32,360 nucleotides of DNA, from contig JAITGS010000097.1 of NCBI GenBank assembly GCA_031280435.1, forward strand, positions 1-32,360, given 5' to 3'. The first letter of the stretch is position 1; each line of letters opens with the position of its first letter. The position numbers and the translations under genes are program-made. Source of the DNA: Tannerellaceae bacterium (GTDB lineage Bacteria; Bacteroidota; Bacteroidia; Bacteroidales; Tannerellaceae). Shown here in pieces: positions 5,001-31,913 of the stretch. The notes beneath the pieces were generated by a model, which was not told where the DNA came from, made no database searches, and was given only the letters and a program-made list of their open reading frames with translations.

Positions 5001-5165
5001 GGTTATAGGACCAAGCTCATCAACCACTGTTCCGGTCACTTTCCCGCTTTGCTGAGCAGCATCCGCGGCATGCTTGACAGATGCGCCAACAGCCTCCACA
5101 TTCCATGAGAAACACAGAAACGCAGCTAACGCGATCAAACTCTTTAAATTTAAACACTTTAACAT
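2034..5165 (-). CDS. SusC/RagA-family TonB-dependent transporter
   Basis: The 1043-residue outer-membrane importer takes up a substrate delivered by its SusD partner, using energy from TonB-ExbBD. It has a signal peptide (about 1-26), an N-terminal carboxypeptidase-regulatory-like domain (about 40-115, starting GKVTGTVVDELG), a plug domain (about 130-260, with LTETRDANVANALAGKVAGV and PLIVVDGVPIDN), and a long beta-barrel ending in an aromatic residue (NINVSF), as outer-membrane barrels do. Length and domain order are normal. No SusC-specific anti-sigma partner is visible, so regulation may rest on the promoter at 5425-5453. The substrate is unknown. Confidence 0.96.
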   Translation of the reverse strand: MLKCLNLKSLIALAAFLCFSWNVEAVGASVKHAADAAQQSGKVTGTVVDELGPITGASLLIEGTSNGTVTDLDGGFVLEGVKNGDVILVSYVGYVSQRINYAGQPTLSIVLVEDAQALGEVVVTALGIKRDKKALGYAMQEVKGDRLTETRDANVANALAGKVAGVQIRQNGTGVGGATNILIRGNNSIAGNNQPLIVVDGVPIDNFANNTADYWGNGNIDKGSGISDISPDDIETMSVLKGPAAAALYGSRAGNGVVMITTRKGTSKGIGIAYNTNYTFETPMQTPELQNIYGQGTNGEFNRDTRGSWGPVMDGKSVTNGLGSFAYAARDNDVYKDFLQTGSSWTNSLDINKATEDLTFRAAVTRMDNSGAVPNSGLNRTSMTLRSTANLTKWLSVDVKVNYVNQKAKNRIKVAADPDNIFLESLFMPRSVGYSDFSAFESTNWKRPDGKPATYLDTHASSPNNPYWTAYRNTNSDERDRYISLVAFDFTITDWLSLKLRSGMDNYTLYSENVRATGNPYWENQGSIRIQTERFKETNTDFLLTAQKTFGGLGLIITAGGNTMFRSSTLNNDFSGELVIPDFYTISNGKTHSGAGFWKSRKQINSLYATASLSWDNYLYLDLTSRTDWSSTLPKDNSSYSYPSIGGSWVFSQMLSQKGKSLGPLTYGKVRVSWAEVGNDTDPYQLKDYYNIGYDIKGGVFTVNSLDFMANPGLKSESIRSWELGLELRGFENRIGLDVSYYKKNAFNQILKISVPPATGYRYKLINAGNIQNHGFEIALNATPVQTAGRFKWETLLNWSKNVNQIIALTDDTKRQVLSDGTSIPIQIVAEEGGAYGDMYGYAYERDAAGAIVVGDNGLPVRAAEMKKLGNNQPEWMLGWSNEFSYKNISLGFLVDMNYGGSVYMGSIRVGTQFGSLASTLAGRDGMVVAGVTQAGAANTVSVKAQDYWSNLGSIDEAFIFDATNVRLRELNIAYSLPKQLLRKTPFGGIKAGLVARNLFMIHSNTEGFDPEAGFSSGSKTQGYEYGSMPTMRSIGFNINVSF

Positions 5166-5424
5166 AAAACTACAATTGGGTTAATAATACATTATAAAAA
5201 TTAGAATAATCTCAGAATAGTTTTCCAACTATCATCAGGCAAGAAAAAATACTGGTAATGAGAAAAATACAATCCATTTCGGAGTATTTATAAGAGAAAC
5301 AGTATTTAGTATTTTCGGCGGTCATAAAACAATTATTTAAACGGTTCAACATCAACGGCATCAATTCTTTAAAGTAAATAATATCATTGTCTGAAAAAAG
5401 GAACGGTTGTTCTGACAATGACAG
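5166..5424 (-). other. Long 5' leader of the susC-susD operon
   Basis: About 250 nt separate the putative promoter from the susC start codon. The stretch is AT-rich and contains no convincing small gene; a 71-codon frame at 5212-5427 starts with TTG inside the promoter box. No clear riboswitch fold was recognised by eye. A leader of this length leaves room for post-transcriptional control. Confidence 0.45.
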
Positions 5425-5453
5425 CAAAGGTATGTGAATAATTGAAAAAACAA
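5425..5453 (-). promoter_or_regulatory. Bacteroidota promoter for susC-susD
   Basis: On the minus strand the -7 box is TACCTTTG (5425-5432), a match to TAnnTTTG, with a TTG -33 element at 5451-5453 separated by 18 bp. It implies a transcript start near 5418. Confidence 0.6.
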
Positions 5454-5700
5454 GCTCTTATCCCAAAAAATATGGAAAAAAAATTTCAACAAGCCCTCCA
5501 TACCTGATAATCAACATTCCAGGAAAACAAAAAAAGACACCCACAAAGCCGGTATCAACTCCCAAAGCAGCCCGGCGCGCTCCTCAGCCCCCAAAAAATT
5601 GTCACTTTAAACCTTCCTTTTTTCCGACAATATCCCCTCCACCCCCATTTTCCCTCAACCGGACACAATAACAGTTTTGCGTAGTTCCGCAAGCCAATTG

Positions 5701-6135
5701 TGGGCTCCCCTAAAGCGTTTATGGGCTCCCCTAAAGCGATTATGGGCTCCCCTAAAGCGATTATGGCCTCCCCTAAAGCGTTTATGGCCTCCCCTAAAGC
5801 GTTTATGGGCTCCCCTAAAGCGAATATGGGCTCCCCTAAAGCGATTATGGGCTCCCCTAAAGCGTTTATGGGCTCCCCTAAAGCGATTATGGGCTCCCCT
5901 AAAGCGTTTATGGGCTCCCCTAAAGCGTTTATGGCCTTCCCTAAAGCGATTATGGGCTCCCCTAAAGCGTTTATGGCCTCCCCTAAAGCGTTTATGGGCT
6001 CCCCTAAAGCGTTTATGGGCTCCCCTAAAGCGTTTATGGCCTTCCCTAAAGCATTTATGGGCTCCCCTAAAGCGATTATGGCCTCCCCTAAAGTGATTAT
6101 GGAACCCCACAAAGTGCCTGTGGAACTGCGCAAAG
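5701..6135. repeat. 21-bp tandem array, about 19 units plus 2 degenerate
   Basis: Units begin every 21 bp from 5701 (TGGGCTCCCCTAAAGCG followed by TTTA or ATTA). The last clear unit begins at 6079, and two decayed copies follow at 6100 and 6121. Variation is concentrated at two places, the GGGCTCC/GGCCTCC/GGCCTTCC block and the CGTTTA/CGATTA/CGAATA block. Because 21 is a multiple of three, four reading frames stay open on both strands (for example repeats of GSPKAFM or GEPINAL). These frames mirror each other and none has an upstream start signal, so I treat the array as non-coding. It fills the space between divergent susC and the AlaX-type gene. Confidence 0.93.
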
Positions 6136-14116: not shown

Positions 14117-14240
14117 CTCTCGGATGCTTCTCCACGCACTCCAATCTATTTTCACTGCATGTACGGCCGGCTCAGAGCGCCTAGTTCGTCGTTAAAACTG
14201 CCTCATACATCGAGCTGCGCTTGCTTTCCGACGATTATCC

Positions 14241-14271
14241 TTGCGCTGCCGTCTTGCAGGCGATAGCTTTG
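14241..14271 (+). promoter_or_regulatory. Promoter of the MacAB-TolC-like operon
   Basis: TTG (14241-14243), 20 bp, then TAGCTTTG (14264-14271). The ATG of the outer-membrane factor at 14293 follows 21 bp later, giving a very short leader. Confidence 0.55.
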
Positions 14272-14292
14272 CGGTCATATAATAATATATGT

Positions 14293-15591
14293 ATGAAAAA
14301 GATTTTGACTATACTCTGTTTATTTTTCCTCCCGGCGCTGATGGGGCTCGAAGCGCAGACGCTGCCTGAGGAATGGACGCTGAACGATTGCATCAGCTAT
14401 GCTATCGACAATAACATACAGGTGCAGAAGAGCAGGACGGCCTTGCTATCGGCTCGCGAAGACGCTCTGCAAGCAAGGGCGAGGCTACTGCCGACGGTTT
14501 CGGCATCGGTCTCGCAGAGCGGCTCCTACTATCCTTCCGGATCGGAGGCGAGCGTCGGAGGCAACTACGGCCTCAGCTCATCGTGGACGCTATTCGACGG
14601 AGGCCGGCGAGCACAGGCCGTCAGGCAGCAAGAGCTTCAGAGCGAGATACATCTGCTCGGCATTGAGCAGAGCGAGATCGACCTGCGCATAGCTGTCGTA
14701 CAGACTTATCTGCAAGCTCTGTACACCAAGGAAGCCGTTGGCATCGCCTTGCGAATGACCGAAACCTCGGCCGCACAGCTTCTGCGAGCACAGGAGCTAC
14801 TCCGGGCGGGAACCATTTCGCGAGTCGACCTCGCCCAGCTCGAAAGCCAGCACAGCACGAACAAATATCAGGCGACTGTGGCTCAGAAGAATTATGACAC
14901 CGAAATGCTGCGCCTCAAGCAACTGCTCGAGCTCGACATGGCAACCGACATGCGCCTCGCCGAATCCCTTCCCACCGAAGCGGACGTCCTTCGCCCGCTG
15001 CCCGCGCGCCCCTTAGTGTATGCCGCCGCATTAGCTTCGAGGCCGGAGATGAAGAGCGGGCAGCTTAGCATCGATGCCGCCAGGATTGACATTCAGCGCG
15101 CCAAGGCAGGATATTTGCCTACGCTATCGCTTAATGCTGCCATAGGATCGGGATATTCGTCCGGCGGCGGAACCTGGGGAGCGCAGCTCGAGCGGTCGCT
15201 GAACGGCAATGCCGGCATCAGCCTCAGCCTGCCGATTTACAGCAACAGGGACAACCGTACAGCCGTCAACAAAGCCCGATACACAGTTACCACACAGGAG
15301 CTTAACCTCCGGAGCGCACGCAAAAGCCTCCTGGCTGCCGTAGAGGGCATATATCTCGACGCTGCTTCGTCGCAAACGCAGTATATGGCTGCAAATGAGA
15401 GGCTGCGCTATGTTGAAGAAAGTTTCCGTCTTACCGAAGAACAGTTCTTTCTCGGCATGAAAAATACTCTCGAACTGCTCACCGAACGCAACAACCTGCT
15501 CAGCGCGCAGCAGGAAGCGCTTCAATCTAAATATGTAAGCATAATGAGCATAAAGCTGCTCGATATATATCAAGGCCTTAACGCGCCCTGA
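14293..15591 (+). CDS. TolC-family outer-membrane efflux protein
   Basis: The 432-residue protein is the outer-membrane exit duct of a tripartite exporter. A signal peptide (MKKILTILCLFFLPALMG..) is probably cleaved near residue 22. The mature part has two tandem outer-membrane-efflux halves rich in long helices (about 30-220 and 230-425), the normal TolC plan. The ATG at 14293 was chosen because it begins the signal peptide and follows the promoter; the frame continues upstream to 14221 without a plausible leader. It is the first gene of a cluster with adaptor, ATPase and permease. Confidence 0.93.
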   Translation: MKKILTILCLFFLPALMGLEAQTLPEEWTLNDCISYAIDNNIQVQKSRTALLSAREDALQARARLLPTVSASVSQSGSYYPSGSEASVGGNYGLSSSWTLFDGGRRAQAVRQQELQSEIHLLGIEQSEIDLRIAVVQTYLQALYTKEAVGIALRMTETSAAQLLRAQELLRAGTISRVDLAQLESQHSTNKYQATVAQKNYDTEMLRLKQLLELDMATDMRLAESLPTEADVLRPLPARPLVYAAALASRPEMKSGQLSIDAARIDIQRAKAGYLPTLSLNAAIGSGYSSGGGTWGAQLERSLNGNAGISLSLPIYSNRDNRTAVNKARYTVTTQELNLRSARKSLLAAVEGIYLDAASSQTQYMAANERLRYVEESFRLTEEQFFLGMKNTLELLTERNNLLSAQQEALQSKYVSIMSIKLLDIYQGLNAP

Positions 15592-15639
15592 GATTTATAT
15601 GCAAACATTCCAAAAAAATTATAAGCCTATATATATAAT

Positions 15640-16833
15640 ATGAGAAAAAAGAAGAGAACAATTATTTGCGCCGCTGTCGTAATTAGCCTCGCAGCCTGCG
15701 CAATCTACATGGCCGGCAAAGGAAAATCCGCTGCATCAGGAGCTTATCAGCTTGAGACAGCAAGGGCCGAACGTAGGACAATGGTCAGCGCAATCACTGC
15801 AACGGGCACCGTCGAGCCCGTCGTAACCGTCGAAGTAGGCACGCAAGTGTCCGGCATAATCAGCGAGCTATATGTTGATTACAACGACGTCGTAAAGCGC
15901 GGACAACTGCTCGCCGAGATGGACAAAGTGAACCTCGAAGCCGAGCTCGCTGCCAAGGAAGCCGACATAGCCGCAAGCCGCAGCCAGCTTGATTATCAGG
16001 AGAAGAACTACAATCGCAGCCGCGCTCTGCATGAAAAACAGCTCATTAGCGAAAGCGATTTCGAAACCGCCACATATAATTATCACCAGGCCAAAAGCTC
16101 CTACGACCGCCTTCGCTCCGACATGATCCGCGTGCGCCGCAACCTTGAGTACGCCATCATAACCAGCCCTATCGACGGCGTCGTAGTCAAGCGAGCCGTG
16201 GAGCGAGGCCAGACCGTTGCCGCAGGATTCAGCACTCCAACCCTTTTCACCATAGCTAACGACCTGACACAGATGCGCGTAATAGCCAACGTAGACGAAG
16301 CCGACATAGGCGAGGTGCACGAAGGCCAGAACGTCTCATTCACGGTCGACGCCTATCCCGACGACATCTTCGAAGGCAGCGTCACGCAGGTGCGCCTCGA
16401 AGCAACCGTAACTGCCAACGTAGTAACCTATTCCGTCGTCATAAGCGCACCAAATCCCGACCTTAAGCTAAAGCCGGGCCTCACCGCCAACGTAAGCATA
16501 CGCACCCTTGAGCGCCACTCCGTGCTCGCGCTGCCATACAAGGCTCTCCGCTTTGTGCCCGACGGCGCCGTCCTGAAGGCGATGGAGCTCGAAACGGCCG
16601 AAATTCCCGATCCGGCTCCGGGCAAAAAAATCGTATGGCAAAAGGACGGAAATGTGCTCAGGCCGCGAGAGATAATTGCCGGCGCATCCACCGTCAGCGC
16701 CGTCGAGATTCTCGAAGGCCTGTCCGAAGGAGAAGAAATTATTACAGACATACAAATCGCCCAGCCGGAGCTCAAACAATCTCCCGGTGGATTGTTCGCA
16801 CCCCCAGCGCCGCGGGGAGGAGGAAGGAGGTAA
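15640..16833 (+). CDS. Periplasmic adaptor (MacA/HlyD family)
   Basis: The 397-residue membrane-fusion protein bridges the inner-membrane ABC transporter and the TolC duct. It has one N-terminal membrane anchor (about 7-26), a lipoyl/barrel half (VEVGTQVSGIISELYVDYNDVVKRGQLLAEMD), a coiled-coil hairpin (about 105-175), the second half of the lipoyl domain (IITSPIDGVVVKRAVERGQTVAAG) and a beta-barrel domain. The C-terminus is Gly/Pro-rich (APPAPRGGGRR). The ATPase gene starts 6 bp after its stop, which points to cotranscription. The exported substrate cannot be inferred. Confidence 0.93.
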   Translation: MRKKKRTIICAAVVISLAACAIYMAGKGKSAASGAYQLETARAERRTMVSAITATGTVEPVVTVEVGTQVSGIISELYVDYNDVVKRGQLLAEMDKVNLEAELAAKEADIAASRSQLDYQEKNYNRSRALHEKQLISESDFETATYNYHQAKSSYDRLRSDMIRVRRNLEYAIITSPIDGVVVKRAVERGQTVAAGFSTPTLFTIANDLTQMRVIANVDEADIGEVHEGQNVSFTVDAYPDDIFEGSVTQVRLEATVTANVVTYSVVISAPNPDLKLKPGLTANVSIRTLERHSVLALPYKALRFVPDGAVLKAMELETAEIPDPAPGKKIVWQKDGNVLRPREIIAGASTVSAVEILEGLSEGEEIITDIQIAQPELKQSPGGLFAPPAPRGGGRR

Positions 16834-16839
16834 ACAGGC

Positions 16840-17580
16840 ATGAAAGAAATAATACGCCTCGACGGCATCAGGCGCGAGTTCCGTGTCGGCGACGAAACCA
16901 TACATGCCCTTCGCGGCATAACATTCGTGATAAAAGAAGGCGAGTTCGTTTCCATCATGGGCTCCTCAGGTTCAGGCAAAAGCACGCTCCTTAATACGCT
17001 CGGATGTCTCGACACGCCATCGGCAGGCGAGTACTATCTCGACGGCGTCTCCGTCCGTAGCATGGGACGCAACGCACGGGCGGCGCTGCGAAATCGCAAG
17101 ATTGGCTTCGTTTTTCAGAGCTATAATCTGCTGCCCAAGACAAGCGCTGCGGAAAATGTTGAGCTGCCGTTATTATATAATCCGGCCTACGGAAGCTCCG
17201 AGCGCCGCCGCAAGGCCATAGAAGCACTCAGCGCCGTAGGCCTCGCCGACCGCCTTCGCCACAAAAGCAACCAAATGTCCGGCGGACAGATGCAACGAGT
17301 GGCAATCGCACGCGCCCTGGTTAACGATCCGGCTGTCATACTGGCCGACGAAGCCACGGGTAACTTGGATTCCAGAACCAGCTGCGAGATCATAATTCTC
17401 TTCCAAAAGCTTCACCGACAGGGGCGTACCATCATATTTGTTACGCACAACCCGGAAATAGCCCAGTACAGCAGCAGGAATATTCTTCTGAAAGACGGCC
17501 GAGTGCAGAGCGACACGCTTAACACAAACGTCCTCTCCGCAGCCGAAACCCTTGCGGCAATGCCCGTTGCCGAAGATTAA
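16840..17580 (+). CDS. ABC transporter ATP-binding protein (MacB/LolD type)
   Basis: The 246-residue ATPase has a complete set of motifs: Walker A GSSGSGKST (41-49), Q-loop near VFQSYN (91-96), signature MSGGQ (146-150), Walker B VILADE (166-171), and the H-loop His in FVTHNP. Sequence and context place it in the MacB/LolD group that powers mechanotransmission-type permeases. In E. coli MacB the ATPase and permease are fused; here they are separate genes, as is usual in Bacteroidota, but unusually 345 bp containing a repeat array lie between them. Confidence 0.95.
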   Translation: MKEIIRLDGIRREFRVGDETIHALRGITFVIKEGEFVSIMGSSGSGKSTLLNTLGCLDTPSAGEYYLDGVSVRSMGRNARAALRNRKIGFVFQSYNLLPKTSAAENVELPLLYNPAYGSSERRRKAIEALSAVGLADRLRHKSNQMSGGQMQRVAIARALVNDPAVILADEATGNLDSRTSCEIIILFQKLHRQGRTIIFVTHNPEIAQYSSRNILLKDGRVQSDTLNTNVLSAAETLAAMPVAED

Positions 17581-17658
17581 CCAGCCGGCAAACACATGTT
17601 TATAGCGGCGGAAGAGAATATTCGTATGCTTCAAAATAAATACCCCACCTTTGTCACG

Positions 17659-17804
17659 TTTATGCGCGTGTACTGCCGAATTTATGCGCGTGTACTGCCG
17701 AATTTATGCGCGTGTACTGCCGAATTTATGTGCGTGTACTGCCGTATTTATGCGCATGTACTGCCGCATTTATGCGCGTGTACTGCCGCATTTATCTGCG
17801 TGAA
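17659..17804. repeat. 22-bp tandem array, 6 full units plus a partial
   Basis: Units begin at 17659, 17681, 17703, 17725, 17747, 17769 and 17791. The core is TTTATGCGCGTGTACTGCCG followed by AA, TA or CA. The last copy is decayed. Frames crossing it encode cysteine-rich repeats (for example AFMRVYCRIYV) but have no start signals or conserved features, so the array is treated as non-coding. The gap of 345 bp between the ATPase and permease genes otherwise holds nothing recognisable. Confidence 0.9.
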
Positions 17805-17911
17805 CTCACAGAAAAATCTGCGAGTGTGGATATGGAAGCCGGGAACCGCTTTTGTAAACATCCGGCAACAGTTGAAGCCTTATCTTATCCCACATATAAA
17901 TAAATATTAGT

Positions 17912-17919
17912 TATATTTG
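17912..17919 (+). promoter_or_regulatory. Possible -7 box just before the permease gene
   Basis: TATATTTG matches TAnnTTTG but lies only 6 bp before the ATG at 17926 and has no visible -33 element. If used it would give a nearly leaderless transcript. It may be chance in AT-rich sequence. Confidence 0.2.
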
Positions 17920-17925
17920 AAAAAA

Positions 17926-19146
17926 ATGAACATACCGAATCTTTTTAAAATAGCACTGAAGGCACTGGCAAACAACAAGATGCGCGGCTTTCTTACAATG
18001 CTTGGCATAATAATCGGCGTAGCCTCCGTAATAACTATGCTCGCCATAGGGCAAGGATCTAAAGACAGTATCCATCAGCAGATCAGCGAGATGGGAGCAA
18101 ATATGATCATGGTGCAGCCCGGCGGTGACATGCGCTTCGGAGCCAGGCAGAGCGCGTCGGACATGGAAACGCTCAAGCTGCCTGATTTTGAGGCCATACG
18201 CCGCGAAGCCCGCTTCATAAGCGGGGTGTCGCCAACCGTCACGGCCGGCGGGCAATTTATCAACGGGGCCAATAATCATCCGAGCACGCTCTACGGAGTT
18301 AATGAAGACTATCTCACAATCCGCCACTTTGCTGTGGATAATGGTACGCTCTTTACAGATCAGGAAATTGCAACGGCGGCCAAAGTTTGCGTCATAGGCC
18401 AGACCGTTGCCCGCGAACTGTTTCCGGACGGGGCTGACCCTGTCGGGAGAATTATCCGCTTCCGGAAGATACCGTTTTTGATAATAGGTACACTAAAAAG
18501 TAAAGGCGCCAACGCGATGGGAATGGACCAGGACGACATGGTTTTCGCACCCTACTCAACTGTGCAGAAGCGCGTTCTGGCAATCACGCACCTGCATGGC
18601 ATCACCGCTTCGGCCATTAAGGAAGAATACTCTGAGCAGGCGATGAGCGAAATCGGCAATATCCTCCGCACAAATCACCGCCTGAAGCCAACGGATACTG
18701 ACGATTTTGGCATAAGCTCGATGGAAGAGATCGCGTCGACAATGAACACGGTGATGAATACGCTCACCGTGCTGCTCGGCTCCGTGGCGGGTATTTCGCT
18801 GCTGGTCGGGGGAATAGGGATAATGAATATCATGTACGTATCCGTAACGGAGCGCACCCGTGAGATAGGTTTGCGTATGAGTATAGGAGCAAAATCGCAT
18901 GACATTCTGGCACAATTTCTGCTCGAATCCATACTTATCAGCCTTACGGGCGGTATAATCGGGATGCTGCTCGGAGCTCTGCTTGCGATGGGCATCTCGC
19001 AGGTTCTGAACATGGCGGCATCAATTCAGCCATGGAGCGTGGCGCTGTCGTTTGGCGTTTGCACCGTTACGGGCGTCTTTTTCGGCTGGTATCCGGCCCG
19101 TAAGGCGTCGAATCTTGATCCTATTGATGCCCTGAGATACGAATAG
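17926..19146 (+). CDS. MacB-like ABC transporter permease
   Basis: The 406-residue inner-membrane protein has the MacB plan: a first membrane helix (about 22-44, FLTMLGIIIGVASVITMLAIGQG), a large periplasmic domain (about 50-280), and three C-terminal helices (about 285-310, 335-360, 370-392) in the FtsX-like permease domain, ending YPARKASNLDPIDALRYE, a typical family terminus. The ATG at 17926 is preferred over an in-frame TTG at 17917. With the upstream ATPase, adaptor and outer-membrane factor it forms a tripartite exporter. Confidence 0.95.
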   Translation: MNIPNLFKIALKALANNKMRGFLTMLGIIIGVASVITMLAIGQGSKDSIHQQISEMGANMIMVQPGGDMRFGARQSASDMETLKLPDFEAIRREARFISGVSPTVTAGGQFINGANNHPSTLYGVNEDYLTIRHFAVDNGTLFTDQEIATAAKVCVIGQTVARELFPDGADPVGRIIRFRKIPFLIIGTLKSKGANAMGMDQDDMVFAPYSTVQKRVLAITHLHGITASAIKEEYSEQAMSEIGNILRTNHRLKPTDTDDFGISSMEEIASTMNTVMNTLTVLLGSVAGISLLVGGIGIMNIMYVSVTERTREIGLRMSIGAKSHDILAQFLLESILISLTGGIIGMLLGALLAMGISQVLNMAASIQPWSVALSFGVCTVTGVFFGWYPARKASNLDPIDALRYE

Positions 19147-28930: not shown

Positions 28931-28970
28931 AATGGCCCCGGCTGTGAAGGTCGGGGCCATTCTGCTTTTA
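28931..28970 (+). terminator. Rho-independent terminator of the creD operon
   Basis: Perfect 10-bp arms AATGGCCCCG (28931-28940) and CGGGGCCATT (28952-28961) enclose an 11-base loop, followed by CTGCTTTTA. It ends within the last codons of the convergent radical SAM gene, and the stem could also work for that gene on the minus strand. Confidence 0.75.
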
Positions 28971-31205
28971 TGGGTTGGAGCTATACGGCTCCAAAGTTCT
29001 GCCGGCCAGCTCCACAAGCTTTTTGTAGTAATTGTATTCCTTCCCGCAATCCTGCCTTATCCTGCAAACCCCGCCGCAGATGTAGCGCACGTCGCATTTG
29101 CTGCACTTCGGATTGGAATCGACGCTGATGTTCTTCCATGCCAGGAAGGTTTCGGAATGAACGGCTTTCTCCAAAGCTTTTTCATCGGCCGCGTTGCCAA
29201 GGTAGTTCTCATCATTTATAAAGATGTAACAGGGATAAACAGAGCCGTCCGGCTCAATGTGCAGATGGTTCCCCAGGCCGCATTTAATCTGCGGCACGAA
29301 ATATTTATACACTATATCGGGGTGGAGGCTATACTCGGAATTGTCCGTCTCGGAATTTCTTCCCAGATGCTTCAGCTCGCGCACTTCGACAGGCAGCTTG
29401 CCCAGTTCCTTGGCGAGCTGTTGTACGGCTGCGCCTGCCGTTCCGTGCAGCTCTGTGCGCGACAGTGTCGGCGTAATCACAACTTTGGTATCTGGAGCTA
29501 TATTGCGAAGCTCTATAATGTTGGCTACGGCTTTGTCGTATGAGCCTTTCCCGCGACGCTCGTCGTGCTGCTCCCGGTTGCCGTCTATGCTGACATTCAC
29601 GCAAGTGAAACATTCGGCTATCAGATGGAACAGCTGCGGCGTCAAGGGAATGGCCAGCGAGGTTTGCAGCGTCAGCATGGGTGTTCGGTGTTTTTTCCTG
29701 TAATCCGCAAGCGATAGCAGGATGTTGCTGATGTCCTTGTGAAAAAGAGGCTCTCCGCCTGAGAAGATGATCTGCCGGAAGTTCAATGCAAAAGCTTCGT
29801 CAATCACTTTCAGTATTGTCCCGACGGATGTTTCGCATGAGCGATTGGTTCCGGCATCGGCCCAGCAATGCGTACAGCGCAAAGGACAGTTGTAGGTGAT
29901 ATTGAAGAAGACTGTTTCCGGGCCCCTGCGTTGCAGCCATGCAGGGGCAGTTTGCCATTGTGAGGCCTCAACTATTTTACGGGCGTTCGCAGCCGGCATG
30001 TATGCACGTCGCCTGTTCTCTGCAATAGCCAGCAAGGGAGCCGGCGCCTCCTCTTTGAGCAGCTTCCGGCTCATTTCGGCTGTCATTCTCTTGTCGAGCT
30101 CATCGTAGAAGCTGCGGAAGGCCCGGCAGAAGGGATCGCGCCCGTCCGGGTCCTTCCCGTGGCGCTGCTCGGCAAGCGCGGCATAGCAGCATCCTCCGTT
30201 GCAATATTCGATATGCCTGCATCCGGCCTTAGTGCAGCTCTCCTTTGATTGCTGATGCAGTTTCTCGAACACGGCATAGCCCTTGCTGTTCAATATAGTC
30301 TCCGACGTAGGATTCTCCGAAAGCTTGCCGAGTGAAAACTCGTGCATGCCGCAAAAGCGCTGGCAGGAATACAAGTAGCCTTGGGTGTCGATGGCAAGGT
30401 AGGTTCCCAGGCAGTTCGAGAAGGTGCAGAGGCAGGGCGATCTGTGGTAGATGTTTTTCACAATATGATCAATGGTGCCGACCGTGGTTTCCTCGTAATG
30501 GGCAAAGTATTCCTCCGAGACATTGAGCAGCACTTGAAGCATCTCGTCGGCCGTCAGAGCTTCGCCTTCGTATCCGTGGCCCATGGAGGGAACGGCGCCG
30601 TGCAGCGAGAAGCGTATGCCTTCGTCGAGGAAGAACCTGAACATTTGCCGGCACTTCTCCGGGCTGATGTTGCTGCGGCCCAGGGTTGCGATCACGGATA
30701 CATTCCGCCCGTTCTCCTTCAGCAGCCTGATGCCCTTCATGGTTTTCTCGAAGTATCCTTCGCCGCGCTGGCTGTCGCAAATCTCTTTGGGCCCGTCGAG
30801 GCTTGTGGATATGCTGACGCCGTATTCTCCGAAGAGGTCTATCCACTCCTGACTGAGCAGCCAGATGTTGGACTGTACGTTCAGCTCGACGTTATGCCCG
30901 AACTTCTCCCGTATGAGTGCAAGCGATTGCCTGTACCAGTCTAATCCGGCCAGCAGAGGTTCGCCGCCATGAAACATCATCAGGAAGCCTTTGTCTTTAG
31001 GGAAAAGCCTGTCGAGGAAGTCCACTGCCCGGGCAAAGGTATCATGGGGCATCACATGGTTCTCATGAGGCATGAAGCAGTACTTGCAGTTTGCCTGGCA
31101 TGAAGACGAGGGCGTGAGCATAACCGTGCGCGGGTTGAATGTCTGAGGGGAGGCGGAGGGGCAGCCGTTGCACGAATGGCAGCTCTCCGCACGTTGAGTT
31201 TGCAT
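28968..31205 (-). CDS. Twin radical SAM/SPASM maturase (two fused radical SAM modules)
   Basis: The 745-residue protein has two full radical SAM modules in one chain. Module 1: an N-terminal extra cluster C9-C12-C15 (CHSCNGC), CxxxCxxC at 36-40-43 (CQANCKYC), MFHGGEPLL near 77, and a SPASM-like Cys set at 258-360 (C281, C285, C324, C329, C335, C339, C340, C360). It resembles anaerobic sulfatase-maturase-type enzymes. Module 2: CxxxCxxC at 440-444-447 (CPLRCTHC), FSGGEPLFH near 481, and a SPASM-like set C642, C659, C701, C704, C710, C714, C720. Radical SAM/SPASM enzymes modify peptide or protein side chains. It starts 18 bp after the His/Asp-tailed gene on the same strand, which is its probable substrate. 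No sulfatase lies nearby. Confidence 0.92.
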   Translation of the reverse strand: MQTQRAESCHSCNGCPSASPQTFNPRTVMLTPSSSCQANCKYCFMPHENHVMPHDTFARAVDFLDRLFPKDKGFLMMFHGGEPLLAGLDWYRQSLALIREKFGHNVELNVQSNIWLLSQEWIDLFGEYGVSISTSLDGPKEICDSQRGEGYFEKTMKGIRLLKENGRNVSVIATLGRSNISPEKCRQMFRFFLDEGIRFSLHGAVPSMGHGYEGEALTADEMLQVLLNVSEEYFAHYEETTVGTIDHIVKNIYHRSPCLCTFSNCLGTYLAIDTQGYLYSCQRFCGMHEFSLGKLSENPTSETILNSKGYAVFEKLHQQSKESCTKAGCRHIEYCNGGCCYAALAEQRHGKDPDGRDPFCRAFRSFYDELDKRMTAEMSRKLLKEEAPAPLLAIAENRRRAYMPAANARKIVEASQWQTAPAWLQRRGPETVFFNITYNCPLRCTHCWADAGTNRSCETSVGTILKVIDEAFALNFRQIIFSGGEPLFHKDISNILLSLADYRKKHRTPMLTLQTSLAIPLTPQLFHLIAECFTCVNVSIDGNREQHDERRGKGSYDKAVANIIELRNIAPDTKVVITPTLSRTELHGTAGAAVQQLAKELGKLPVEVRELKHLGRNSETDNSEYSLHPDIVYKYFVPQIKCGLGNHLHIEPDGSVYPCYIFINDENYLGNAADEKALEKAVHSETFLAWKNISVDSNPKCSKCDVRYICGGVCRIRQDCGKEYNYYKKLVELAGRTLEPYSSNP

Positions 31206-31223
31206 GCTAAGTTTTGTTGGCTG

Positions 31224-31913
31224 TTAATTAAAACGTATTTCCATCCCGCTCCGGTAGTCCGTATGGCGGGAGTCTCTAACACCACCGTGATCGGAATGGC
31301 TTCCGTCACCGCACCAATCAGTATGTACATCGCTGTGGGAGCTGCATGAATCCGAATGAGAATCAGTATGTATCTGACCCCTTTCAAATTTACGTAGTAT
31401 CTGCTTCTGCTCCTGTTTCGATACCTTGTATGCGAACTGAATAAAGTCGGCCAATGCCGCACTTTCCAAGCTGTTGCTCATGACGTGTACAACTATGTTG
31501 GGAATAGACTCTAAGCTCTGTTCGTCGAAGTTTTTAAGCGCAGCTTTTTTTAGTTCATAGTGACGTGACGATCCGGCAATTTCTATAAGCGCAGGCTGGT
31601 CGGTCAGTTTTTCAATCGCCGCCAGGCAAACAGCCTTGTCCGCATCGGTTGTTGCTATCTCGGCCAGCAGCGGCTGATGCTCCTCGGCTATCAGATGCTT
31701 TATTGCAGCTATGCGAACATTGCTGTCCGCATCCGTCTTAGCCATCTCGGCCAGCAGAAGCTGAGCATCGGCCGGATTCATTTTCTCTATTCCATCTGAC
31801 ACCCGTACCTCGGCCGCCAGCGCTATCTCAGCCTGCAGAAGCTGAGCATCCGCAGCCTTCGCCGCCTCGGCCTTCTTAGGGTTCTTACTGTTCCATCGTG
31901 CAAAAAGTTTCAT
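31224..31913 (-). CDS. HEAT-like protein with His-Ser/Thr-Asp tail, putative maturase substrate
   Basis: The 229-residue protein has two parts. Residues 20-165 are Ala/Leu-rich helical repeats resembling HEAT repeats (QLLLAEMAKTDADSNVRIAA, PLLAEIATTDADKAVCLAAI), with no signal peptide. Residues 182-220 are a tail with six H-[S/T]-D triplets at 182, 186, 193, 197, 206 and 217, plus Cys190, Trp200, Cys201 and Tyr220 (HTDSHSDSCSSHSDVHTDW). The three HSD copies use different serine codons (TCG, AGC, TCC), so the pattern is kept at protein level. It sits directly upstream of the twin radical SAM gene. I infer a RiPP-like precursor whose helical part serves as leader; a metal-binding tail is the alternative. 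I do not recognise a named family. Confidence 0.85.
   Translation of the reverse strand: MKLFARWNSKNPKKAEAAKAADAQLLQAEIALAAEVRVSDGIEKMNPADAQLLLAEMAKTDADSNVRIAAIKHLIAEEHQPLLAEIATTDADKAVCLAAIEKLTDQPALIEIAGSSRHYELKKAALKNFDEQSLESIPNIVVHVMSNSLESAALADFIQFAYKVSKQEQKQILRKFERGQIHTDSHSDSCSSHSDVHTDWCGDGSHSDHGGVRDSRHTDYRSGMEIRFN

Follow-up and report, generated by a model that had tools for sequence, protein, structure and literature searches.

A twin radical SAM/SPASM enzyme and a HEAT-type protein with a His-x-Asp tail as a candidate substrate-maturase pair

The window analysed here, a whole stretch of 32,360 nucleotides (contig JAITGS010000097.1 of the Tannerellaceae assembly GCA_031280435.1), carries near its end two adjacent genes on the minus strand: one for a 229-residue protein that combines a HEAT-type repeat body with a tail of His-x-Asp (HxD) triplets, and next to it one for a 745-residue enzyme made up of two radical S-adenosylmethionine (SAM)/SPASM units, hereafter called the twin enzyme. 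We consider it rather probable that the two genes form a substrate-maturase pair in which the HEAT solenoid is recognised by the enzyme, the tail is modified by both of its halves and the product is retained. The pairing of the genes and the conservation of the motif are strongly supported by the relatives, it is very likely, judging from the sequences, that the tail is the substrate of the enzyme, and cross-linking of His to Asp is, by analogy with characterised enzymes, our best guess for the chemistry. The recurrence of the pair suggests an undescribed system that would chemically modify the tails of proteins in several bacterial phyla and in an Asgard archaeon.

The original prediction, made from the letters of the window alone, had placed a protein with six H-[S/T]-D triplets 18 bp upstream of a twin enzyme on the same strand, and this is confirmed by the open reading frames (ORFs) and coordinates. 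The HEAT-like nature of the leader, the spread over several phyla, Tyr as a further aromatic residue and the association of the second enzyme half with cysteines in the tail go beyond it. The features of the pair are:

28968..31205, minus strand: twin radical SAM/SPASM enzyme, 745 aa (ORF, NCBIfam, Pfam, alignment, structural model)
30006..31136, minus strand: N-terminal radical SAM/SPASM half, approximately residues 24-400 (TIGR04083 family; fold like that of the anaerobic sulfatase-maturing enzyme, anSME)
29001..29924, minus strand: C-terminal radical SAM/SPASM half, approximately residues 428-735 (EpeE/MoaA-like fold, cluster cysteines kept)
31206..31223: intergenic gap of 18 bp
31224..31913, minus strand: candidate substrate, HEAT-type protein of 229 aa with HxD tail (ORF, HEAT profile, AlphaFold2)
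31389..31913, minus strand: HEAT-type solenoid, approximately residues 1-175, presumed recognition part (AlphaFold2)
31227..31388, minus strand: disordered tail, approximately residues 176-229 (AlphaFold2 predicted local distance difference test, pLDDT)
31257..31370, minus strand: six H-[ST]-D triplets and two Cys (sequence; conservation in relatives)

In the direction of reading the 229-aa ORF thus comes first and the 745-aa ORF second. The contig ends only 447 bp upstream of the substrate gene, and further genes upstream are possible.

Distribution of the pair and covariation of its members

Relatives were collected with an alignment of six twin enzymes, used to scan a single genome for each species. 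Of the 167 found, the 80 best were kept and, together with the window and loci L013, L017 and L018 and minus the duplicates L021 and L022, make up a set of 82 loci. At an E-value of 1e-60 or better the enzyme is present in 4 of the 123 genomes of the family to which the window belongs and in 2 of the 393 genomes of the order sample, its own genome being counted both times. Forty-five of the 82 loci are archaeal, mostly from Methanomicrobiales, and encode single-domain enzymes. The other 37 come from the Bacteroidota, Chloroflexota, Bacillota, Actinomycetota, Acidobacteriota, Nitrospirota, Armatimonadota, Verrucomicrobiota, Thermodesulfobacteriota and Promethearchaeota (Asgard), and most of their enzymes possess a second radical SAM/SPASM half (L090 was counted as twin although its halves lie in two reading frames). 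Because most of these 37 are metagenome bins, single phylum placements can be wrong. A tree of the N-terminal halves (79 rows, including one added sulfatase maturase; L038, L057, L058 and L067 were left out, their translation from the match start being too short) sets 42 archaeal sequences (support 98/95) apart from the 36 others (93/92). The enzyme reading of the Nitrospirae locus L038 contains an in-frame stop near its first radical SAM motif (2737-2812), and it may represent a broken gene or an assembly error.

As a partner we counted a HEAT-profile protein with at least two HxD motifs in its last 75 residues that is encoded within 2.5 kb of the enzyme. Such a partner occurs at 31 of the 37 bacterial/Asgard loci vs. 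none of the 45 archaeal single-domain loci; under a looser rule, by which two motifs within the final 60 residues of any ORF suffice, the numbers are 33/37 and 4/45. Because the HEAT profile was built partly from the partner proteins themselves, the archaeal zero is the fairer test. The archaeal members of TIGR04083, which Methanomicrobiales keep as a conserved single-domain enzyme without a HEAT-HxD neighbour (loci L045-L100), thereby differ from the bacterial and Asgard ones, most of which are both double and paired. HEAT proteins are found next to the enzyme at 32 of the 37 loci and the next commonest neighbour family at 4. No protease or exporter family recurs widely at these 37 loci, several of whose contigs are cut near the unit, and an ABC-transporter-like family lies near the enzyme at 4 of them.

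Five of the six enzymes without a partner under the rule are accompanied by a tail gene at another place in the genome (L032, L096, L066, L056 and, with two such genes, L041); at L032 the neighbouring HEAT gene is cut by the contig end. Six methanogen genomes yielded 21 HEAT matches, and no closed ORF at these matches has two HxD motifs within its 75 C-terminal residues. With the short tail profile A5 only 7 of the 14 genomes known to carry tails were recovered, so that its negatives, i.e., none in the six methanogen genomes and a miss in the L041 genome, are weak; the longer profile A3 detected the two tail genes of the L041 genome and no tail gene in the six methanogens. Nine loci contain several tail genes (L013, on contig C15, L018, L023, L028, L033, L034, L036, L089 and L090). 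HEAT paralogues from genomes G005, G012, G018 and G019 (9 ORFs, picked by a simple pattern from 25 loci) have at most one His-x-Asp in their last 80 residues, and the twin enzyme was not found in these four genomes, two of which (G018 and G019) have single-domain, weaker matches only. The similarity among enzymes is correlated with that among tails (last 130 aa; Mantel r 0.58, 30 loci, 0/5000), also when near-copies are dropped (15 loci; r 0.38, 19/5000, and, for the last 60 aa of these 15, r 0.35, 23/5000).

The two genes are, therefore, usually adjacent in relatives (31/37 bacterial/Asgard loci), as the original prediction requires, and recurrent pairing and covariation support the proposed substrate-then-maturase layout as an enzyme-substrate pair. 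The expectation that the tail tracks the enzyme holds for the archaeal zero, for the tail-less paralogues in genomes lacking the enzyme and for the unlinked tails of five of the six unpartnered enzymes; two genomes, G107 and that of L052, discussed below, speak against it.

No description of an enzyme paired with a HEAT-HxD protein was found in the open literature, a coverage outside which most subscription journals lie. Nor was any paper found under the name Mhun_1560, which we take to denote TIGR04083. Among the best-ranked papers listed, there was no mention of TIGR04083 or of tandem or twin radical SAM domains, and HEAT repeat, SPASM and radical SAM were mentioned together solely in PMC7159879, where, in the text accessible, the context is unrelated.

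Architecture of the twin enzyme and of its partner

The enzyme matches Radical_SAM (PF04055) and SPASM (PF13186) in two stretches each. Over residues 28-381 it scores 377.5 bits against TIGR04083 (rSAM_pep_methan), an NCBIfam radical SAM family with no function assigned, and passes the curated cut-off of 300; all 25 twin enzymes scanned match this family at 1e-20 or better. In an alignment of 25 twin enzymes the three radical SAM cysteines are invariant in each half, as are most SPASM cysteines. Among the best 25 of the 89 NCBIfam families compared, the models for the dynobactin maturase (NF041298, 209.9 bits vs. a cut-off of 450) and the PapB ranthipeptide maturase (NF047865, 172.2 vs. 340) are among the best after TIGR04083, yet stay far below their cut-offs; HxsB (TIGR03978, 116.9 vs. 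370) is below its cut-off as well. The solved fold nearest to the N-terminal half is that of anSME, and the C-terminal half is nearest to the epimerase EpeE and to MoaA. In the structural model residues 1-19 are disordered and are followed directly by the radical SAM fold; PqqD or a precursor peptide recognition element (RRE) is neither among the four Pfam families matched by the enzyme nor among the best 25 of the 89 NCBIfam families considered.

The leader-like helical-repeat part described in the original prediction proved to be HEAT-like by profile and helical over residues 1-175 in the AlphaFold2 model. For the 229-aa protein alone HEAT_2 reaches E=0.0018 and 19 bits, under the Pfam cut-off of 27.7, and 14 of the 26 proteins of alignment A3 match it at E 0.01 or better. 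The model has helices up to residue 174 (pLDDT block means 71-98), and from residue 181 the block means drop to 50-63. A Foldseek search with this model returned nothing at E 0.001 or better and, from E 0.02 up, armadillo/HEAT/PUF-like and designed repeat chains; the HEAT label therefore rests on sequence profiles. By eye, the tail protein of locus L017 (3700-4509) starts with hydrophobic, membrane-helix-like stretches ahead of its HEAT part, and some modified HEAT proteins may thus be membrane-anchored.

The triplets of the window protein are, in order, HTD, HSD, HSD, HTD, HSD and HTD (starting at residues 182, 186, 193, 197, 206 and 217), and its tail cysteines are residues 190 and 201. The end of the tail, G-I-G-x-D-F-P, is kept across three phyla in alignment A5; at L095 (5731-7416, plus strand) the frame of a single-domain enzyme itself closes with HTDEGIGVEF, which resembles a tail, as though part of a substrate had been fused to the enzyme.

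Motif statistics were obtained from 40 tails, the presence of at least two motifs being the rule of selection (L025_5717, with one HxD and a long unrelated end, was dropped). Not counting the first residue of each tail, 93 of the 124 further His have Asp at +2, compared with a mean of 17.2 HxD in shuffled tails (0/2000 shuffles as high). Around His, in 41 tails, Asp accounts for 74% at +2, for 13-19% at -4 to -1 and for 10, 6, and 2% at +1, +3, and +4, respectively, and in the HEAT bodies Asp occupies position +2 for just 11 of 171 His. In eight pairs of related tails (gapped columns left out; some pairs share members) His is kept in 25/25 and Asp in 25/25 cases, the middle residue in 9/25 and the remaining positions in 399/563. 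An enrichment is likewise seen for Tyr-x-Asp (18 of 80 Tyr vs. 6.1 by shuffle, 0/2000), which is spread over 10 of the 40 tails, some of them close relatives, and is mixed with His-x-Asp in the L025 and L026 tails; no enrichment of Phe-x-Asp or Trp-x-Asp was found in the 40 tails. The aromatic-X-X pattern of triceptide precursors is present as H-x-D in all 40 tails, which were, it should be noted, selected for H-x-D.

Cysteine occurs in the tails of 26 of 28 twin loci vs. none of 7 single-domain loci (Fisher p 5e-6; L041 and L052 were left out of this count, and L038 of alignment A4 and of the 34-row tree). The single-domain enzymes with Cys-free tails are L044, L048, L051, L094 and L095, plus L056 and L066 with unlinked tails; the two tails of L041, found afterwards, both have Cys. 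The possibility that single-domain loci encode the second half in trans was rejected: no such half was detected at E 1e-20 in seven of the eight genomes concerned, and the eighth, G528, gave one weak match of 82.7 bits. The association between Cys and the twin form suggests that the first half acts on His-x-Asp and the second on cysteines.

Predicted modification of the tail and its alternatives

In the accessible text of the review PMC11002830, bonds from residue i to i+2 are described as C2(His)-Cbeta(Ala) for the SPASM enzyme HaaB, C2(His)-Cbeta(Arg) for YhhB, C3(Tyr)-Cbeta(Asp) for YxdB and Trp-Cbeta(Asn or Asp) for OscB, and dynobactin has a His-nitrogen to Cbeta bond between positions two residues apart. 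By analogy, His-x-Asp is a known donor and a known acceptor at a known spacing, and the enrichment and conservation of His/Tyr-x-Asp at this fixed spacing are as a ring-to-Asp cross-link would select. The triceptide makers (HaaB, YhhB, YxdB, OscB, and XncB) resemble the system described here in their SPASM nature, in the aromatic residue at i with a partner at i+2, in His and Tyr as donors and in Asp as acceptor, as far as the accessible part of PMC11002830 describes them. They differ from it in that the enzyme here is double, its putative substrate is a folded HEAT-like protein and its scores fall under those of the listed cyclophane models; a repeated His-x-Asp unit was not met in that part of PMC11002830.

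We propose that the HEAT solenoid takes over the role of a short leader peptide and is the part of the 229-aa protein to which the enzyme binds, and that the flexible tail would be the part that gets modified. The N-terminal, TIGR04083-type half would work on each His-x-Asp and on some Tyr-x-Asp units; as in triceptides, the most likely result is a bond between the ring of residue i (imidazole or phenol) and Cbeta of Asp i+2, with the loss of two hydrogens per cross-linked unit. The C-terminal half would introduce a second kind of change, most likely a thioether, in which the tail cysteines take part. The product would stay on the HEAT protein, with no step for release or export encoded with the pair.

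Two other systems share part of this layout. The His-Xaa-Ser system has a repeated His-x-residue motif and two radical SAM activities; here the motif ends in Asp instead, the radical SAM units are fused and the presumed substrate is HEAT-like, unlike in the HxsB system. Proteusin leaders are nitrile-hydratase-like, and the present case departs from them in its HEAT-like leader and in the lack of a linked protease or exporter. Proteusins and other long-leader ribosomally synthesised and post-translationally modified peptides (RiPPs) are similar in having an unusually long structured leader (PMC10858898) and a modified part at the C-terminus.

Several observations weigh against the substrate-maturase reading or parts of it. 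The precursor is a folded protein of 153-1037 aa (41 ORFs), not the small peptide typical of short-precursor RiPPs, and among the best 25 of the 89 NCBIfam families the models of cyclophane makers score below their cut-offs (YhhB 141.7/445, AmcB 125/425, GrrM/OscB 105.3/310). At 2 of the 45 archaeal loci a HEAT-profile ORF lies nearby and lacks the tail. The genome of L052 (G515) has the enzyme and yielded no HEAT match. Conversely, G107 has two HxD-tail genes that are intact, plus a third stretch resembling a tail, and no twin enzyme was detected in this bin. The bin is 79% complete, and its last tail stretch stops about 190 bp short of the end of a contig, in the direction in which, by the gene order of the window, the enzyme would follow. 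The division of labour is challenged by L027 and L039, which are twin with tails that lack Cys, by the close relationship of four of the seven single-domain loci, whose tails are also short, and by the tree, which offers five independent contrasts, two of them well supported and these two being mostly one concordant and one without difference. With so few well-supported contrasts, shared descent can explain the link between Cys and the twin form, and the assignment of the first half to His-x-Asp and the second to Cys is suggested by the sequences as a lead, not a proof. As a separate observation, the G107 stretch with the HEAT-HxD genes (C43, L166) also encodes a WD40-type protein with a C-terminal Cys-Thr-Cys repeat tail (5031-5885, minus strand), possibly the substrate of a different enzyme.

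The tail could also be the substrate of a change other than a cross-link, e.g., desaturation, hydroxylation or epimerisation at Asp, or a modification of His or Cys alone, which we consider unlikely although it is the alternative that survives best. Asp is as invariant as His in the related tails (25/25), the C-terminal half is nearest in fold to an epimerase and to MoaA, and the N-terminal half is nearest to anSME, which oxidises a single residue. A single-residue change, however, needs no fixed spacing between His and Asp, yet 74% of the residues at +2 of His are Asp, and Tyr keeps the same spacing.

More doubtful still is the view that the HEAT protein is a metal-binding or scaffold partner, the tail of which binds metal or iron-sulphur intermediates while the enzyme acts on another target. 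What speaks for it is general knowledge: His and Asp serve as ligands of metals, and HEAT solenoids often act as scaffolds. A metal site would, however, be expected to tolerate Glu, Asn or Cys at the Asp position, and in the 41 tails Glu makes up 3% and Asn 2% at +2 of His. The Tyr with the same spacing to Asp, the several tail proteins at one locus and the retention in the genome of tails unlinked to the enzyme likewise do not fit a scaffold.

Whether the modified tail is kept or released bears on a third alternative, a conventional RiPP in which a protease encoded at another place cuts off the modified tail, which is then exported and acts as a bioactive peptide. The order of precursor and maturase and the patchy spread (4/123 genomes in the family, 2/393 in the order sample) would suit this, as would an export-type set (OEP, HlyD, ABC, and MacB/FtsX domains) at 14221-19146, approximately 10 kb from the pair. 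The original prediction had seen no exporter in the window; this was incorrect for the window as such, given this set, and is correct for the unit, outside which the set lies. On the other hand, no protease or exporter family recurs widely at the 37 loci, so that a modified tail kept on the HEAT protein is likelier than a released peptide. The membrane-helix-like N-terminal stretches of the L017 protein and the tail end kept in three phyla also argue against a secreted product, and we regard this alternative as improbable.

That the enzyme is a usual anaerobic sulfatase maturase next to which a HEAT gene lies by chance is hardly credible and was rejected: despite a TIGR03942 match at E 1.3e-59 and a best PDB fold match to anSME, the enzyme scores under the curated cut-off of TIGR03942 (202.1 bits vs. 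349.45) and over that of TIGR04083, a HEAT neighbour recurs at 32/37 loci, and a separate, true sulfatase maturase is encoded on contig C84 of the same genome (NF010308, 715.6/484 bits; TIGR03942, 456.5/349.45). By curated score the maturase does not group firmly with the sulfatase-maturing enzymes, which is in line with the original prediction, though its N-terminal half is nearest to anSME in fold; the statement of the prediction that no sulfatase lies near is borne out for the 20 window proteins scanned with Pfam, none of which has a sulfatase domain, these being a subset of the ORFs of a contig that ends close to the pair.

A more far-reaching version of the substrate-maturase reading can be put forward tentatively, as a possibility that we would not yet bet on: the double enzyme would install ring-to-Asp and Cys-dependent cross-links in the tail of an intracellular HEAT protein, where the tail would be retained as a working part (e.g., binding a metal, a redox group or a partner), and such cross-linking would constitute a widespread, undescribed class of post-translational modification. 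TIGR04083 gains a concrete candidate class of substrates and a prediction at the level of residues. If the reading is correct, cross-linking by radical SAM/SPASM enzymes extends from small secreted peptides to folded repeat proteins, with a solenoid serving as the leader in an Asgard archaeon and in several phyla from the Bacteroidota to the Chloroflexota. With its two complete radical SAM/SPASM units fused in one protein, the second possibly tied to Cys in the tail, the enzyme would then be a natural system in which to study programmed double modification.

The second pair and the genomic surroundings

The same genome possesses a second pair on contig C15 (L013), a 728-aa twin enzyme with 38% identity to that of the window. 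It is preceded by three small genes that resemble the window protein or one another; two have His-x-Asp tails, and Pfam gave no match for the first gene of the trio. Two HEAT paralogues on contig C62 begin like the window protein at the N-terminus and are without a His-x-Asp tail, and an enzyme search on this contig gave nothing.

A phage origin of the pair was considered and rejected, as no phage record matches the substrate protein and viral contigs give weak, mostly partial matches to the enzyme. A defence role was likewise set aside; a search for defence systems with PADLOC returned viperin models over the radical SAM core of the C-terminal half (best 79.4 bits) and, on relatives, matches to generic HEAT-type models. 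Upstream of the substrate gene, at the end of the contig (32234-32360 of the window), there are two inverted repeats (24 nt, 92% complementary, and 33 nt, 82% complementary). In two related genomes the gene of the twin enzyme is followed by that of a radical SAM protein for which a B12-binding domain matches weakly (L013 8749-10029 and L018 3381-4661). Tandem repeats of 42 bp occur in the genome of the window at L013 3710-3931 (5.3 copies) and L014 8142-8437 (7.1 copies), and one of these arrays lies just upstream of the C15 cluster of HEAT and radical SAM genes.

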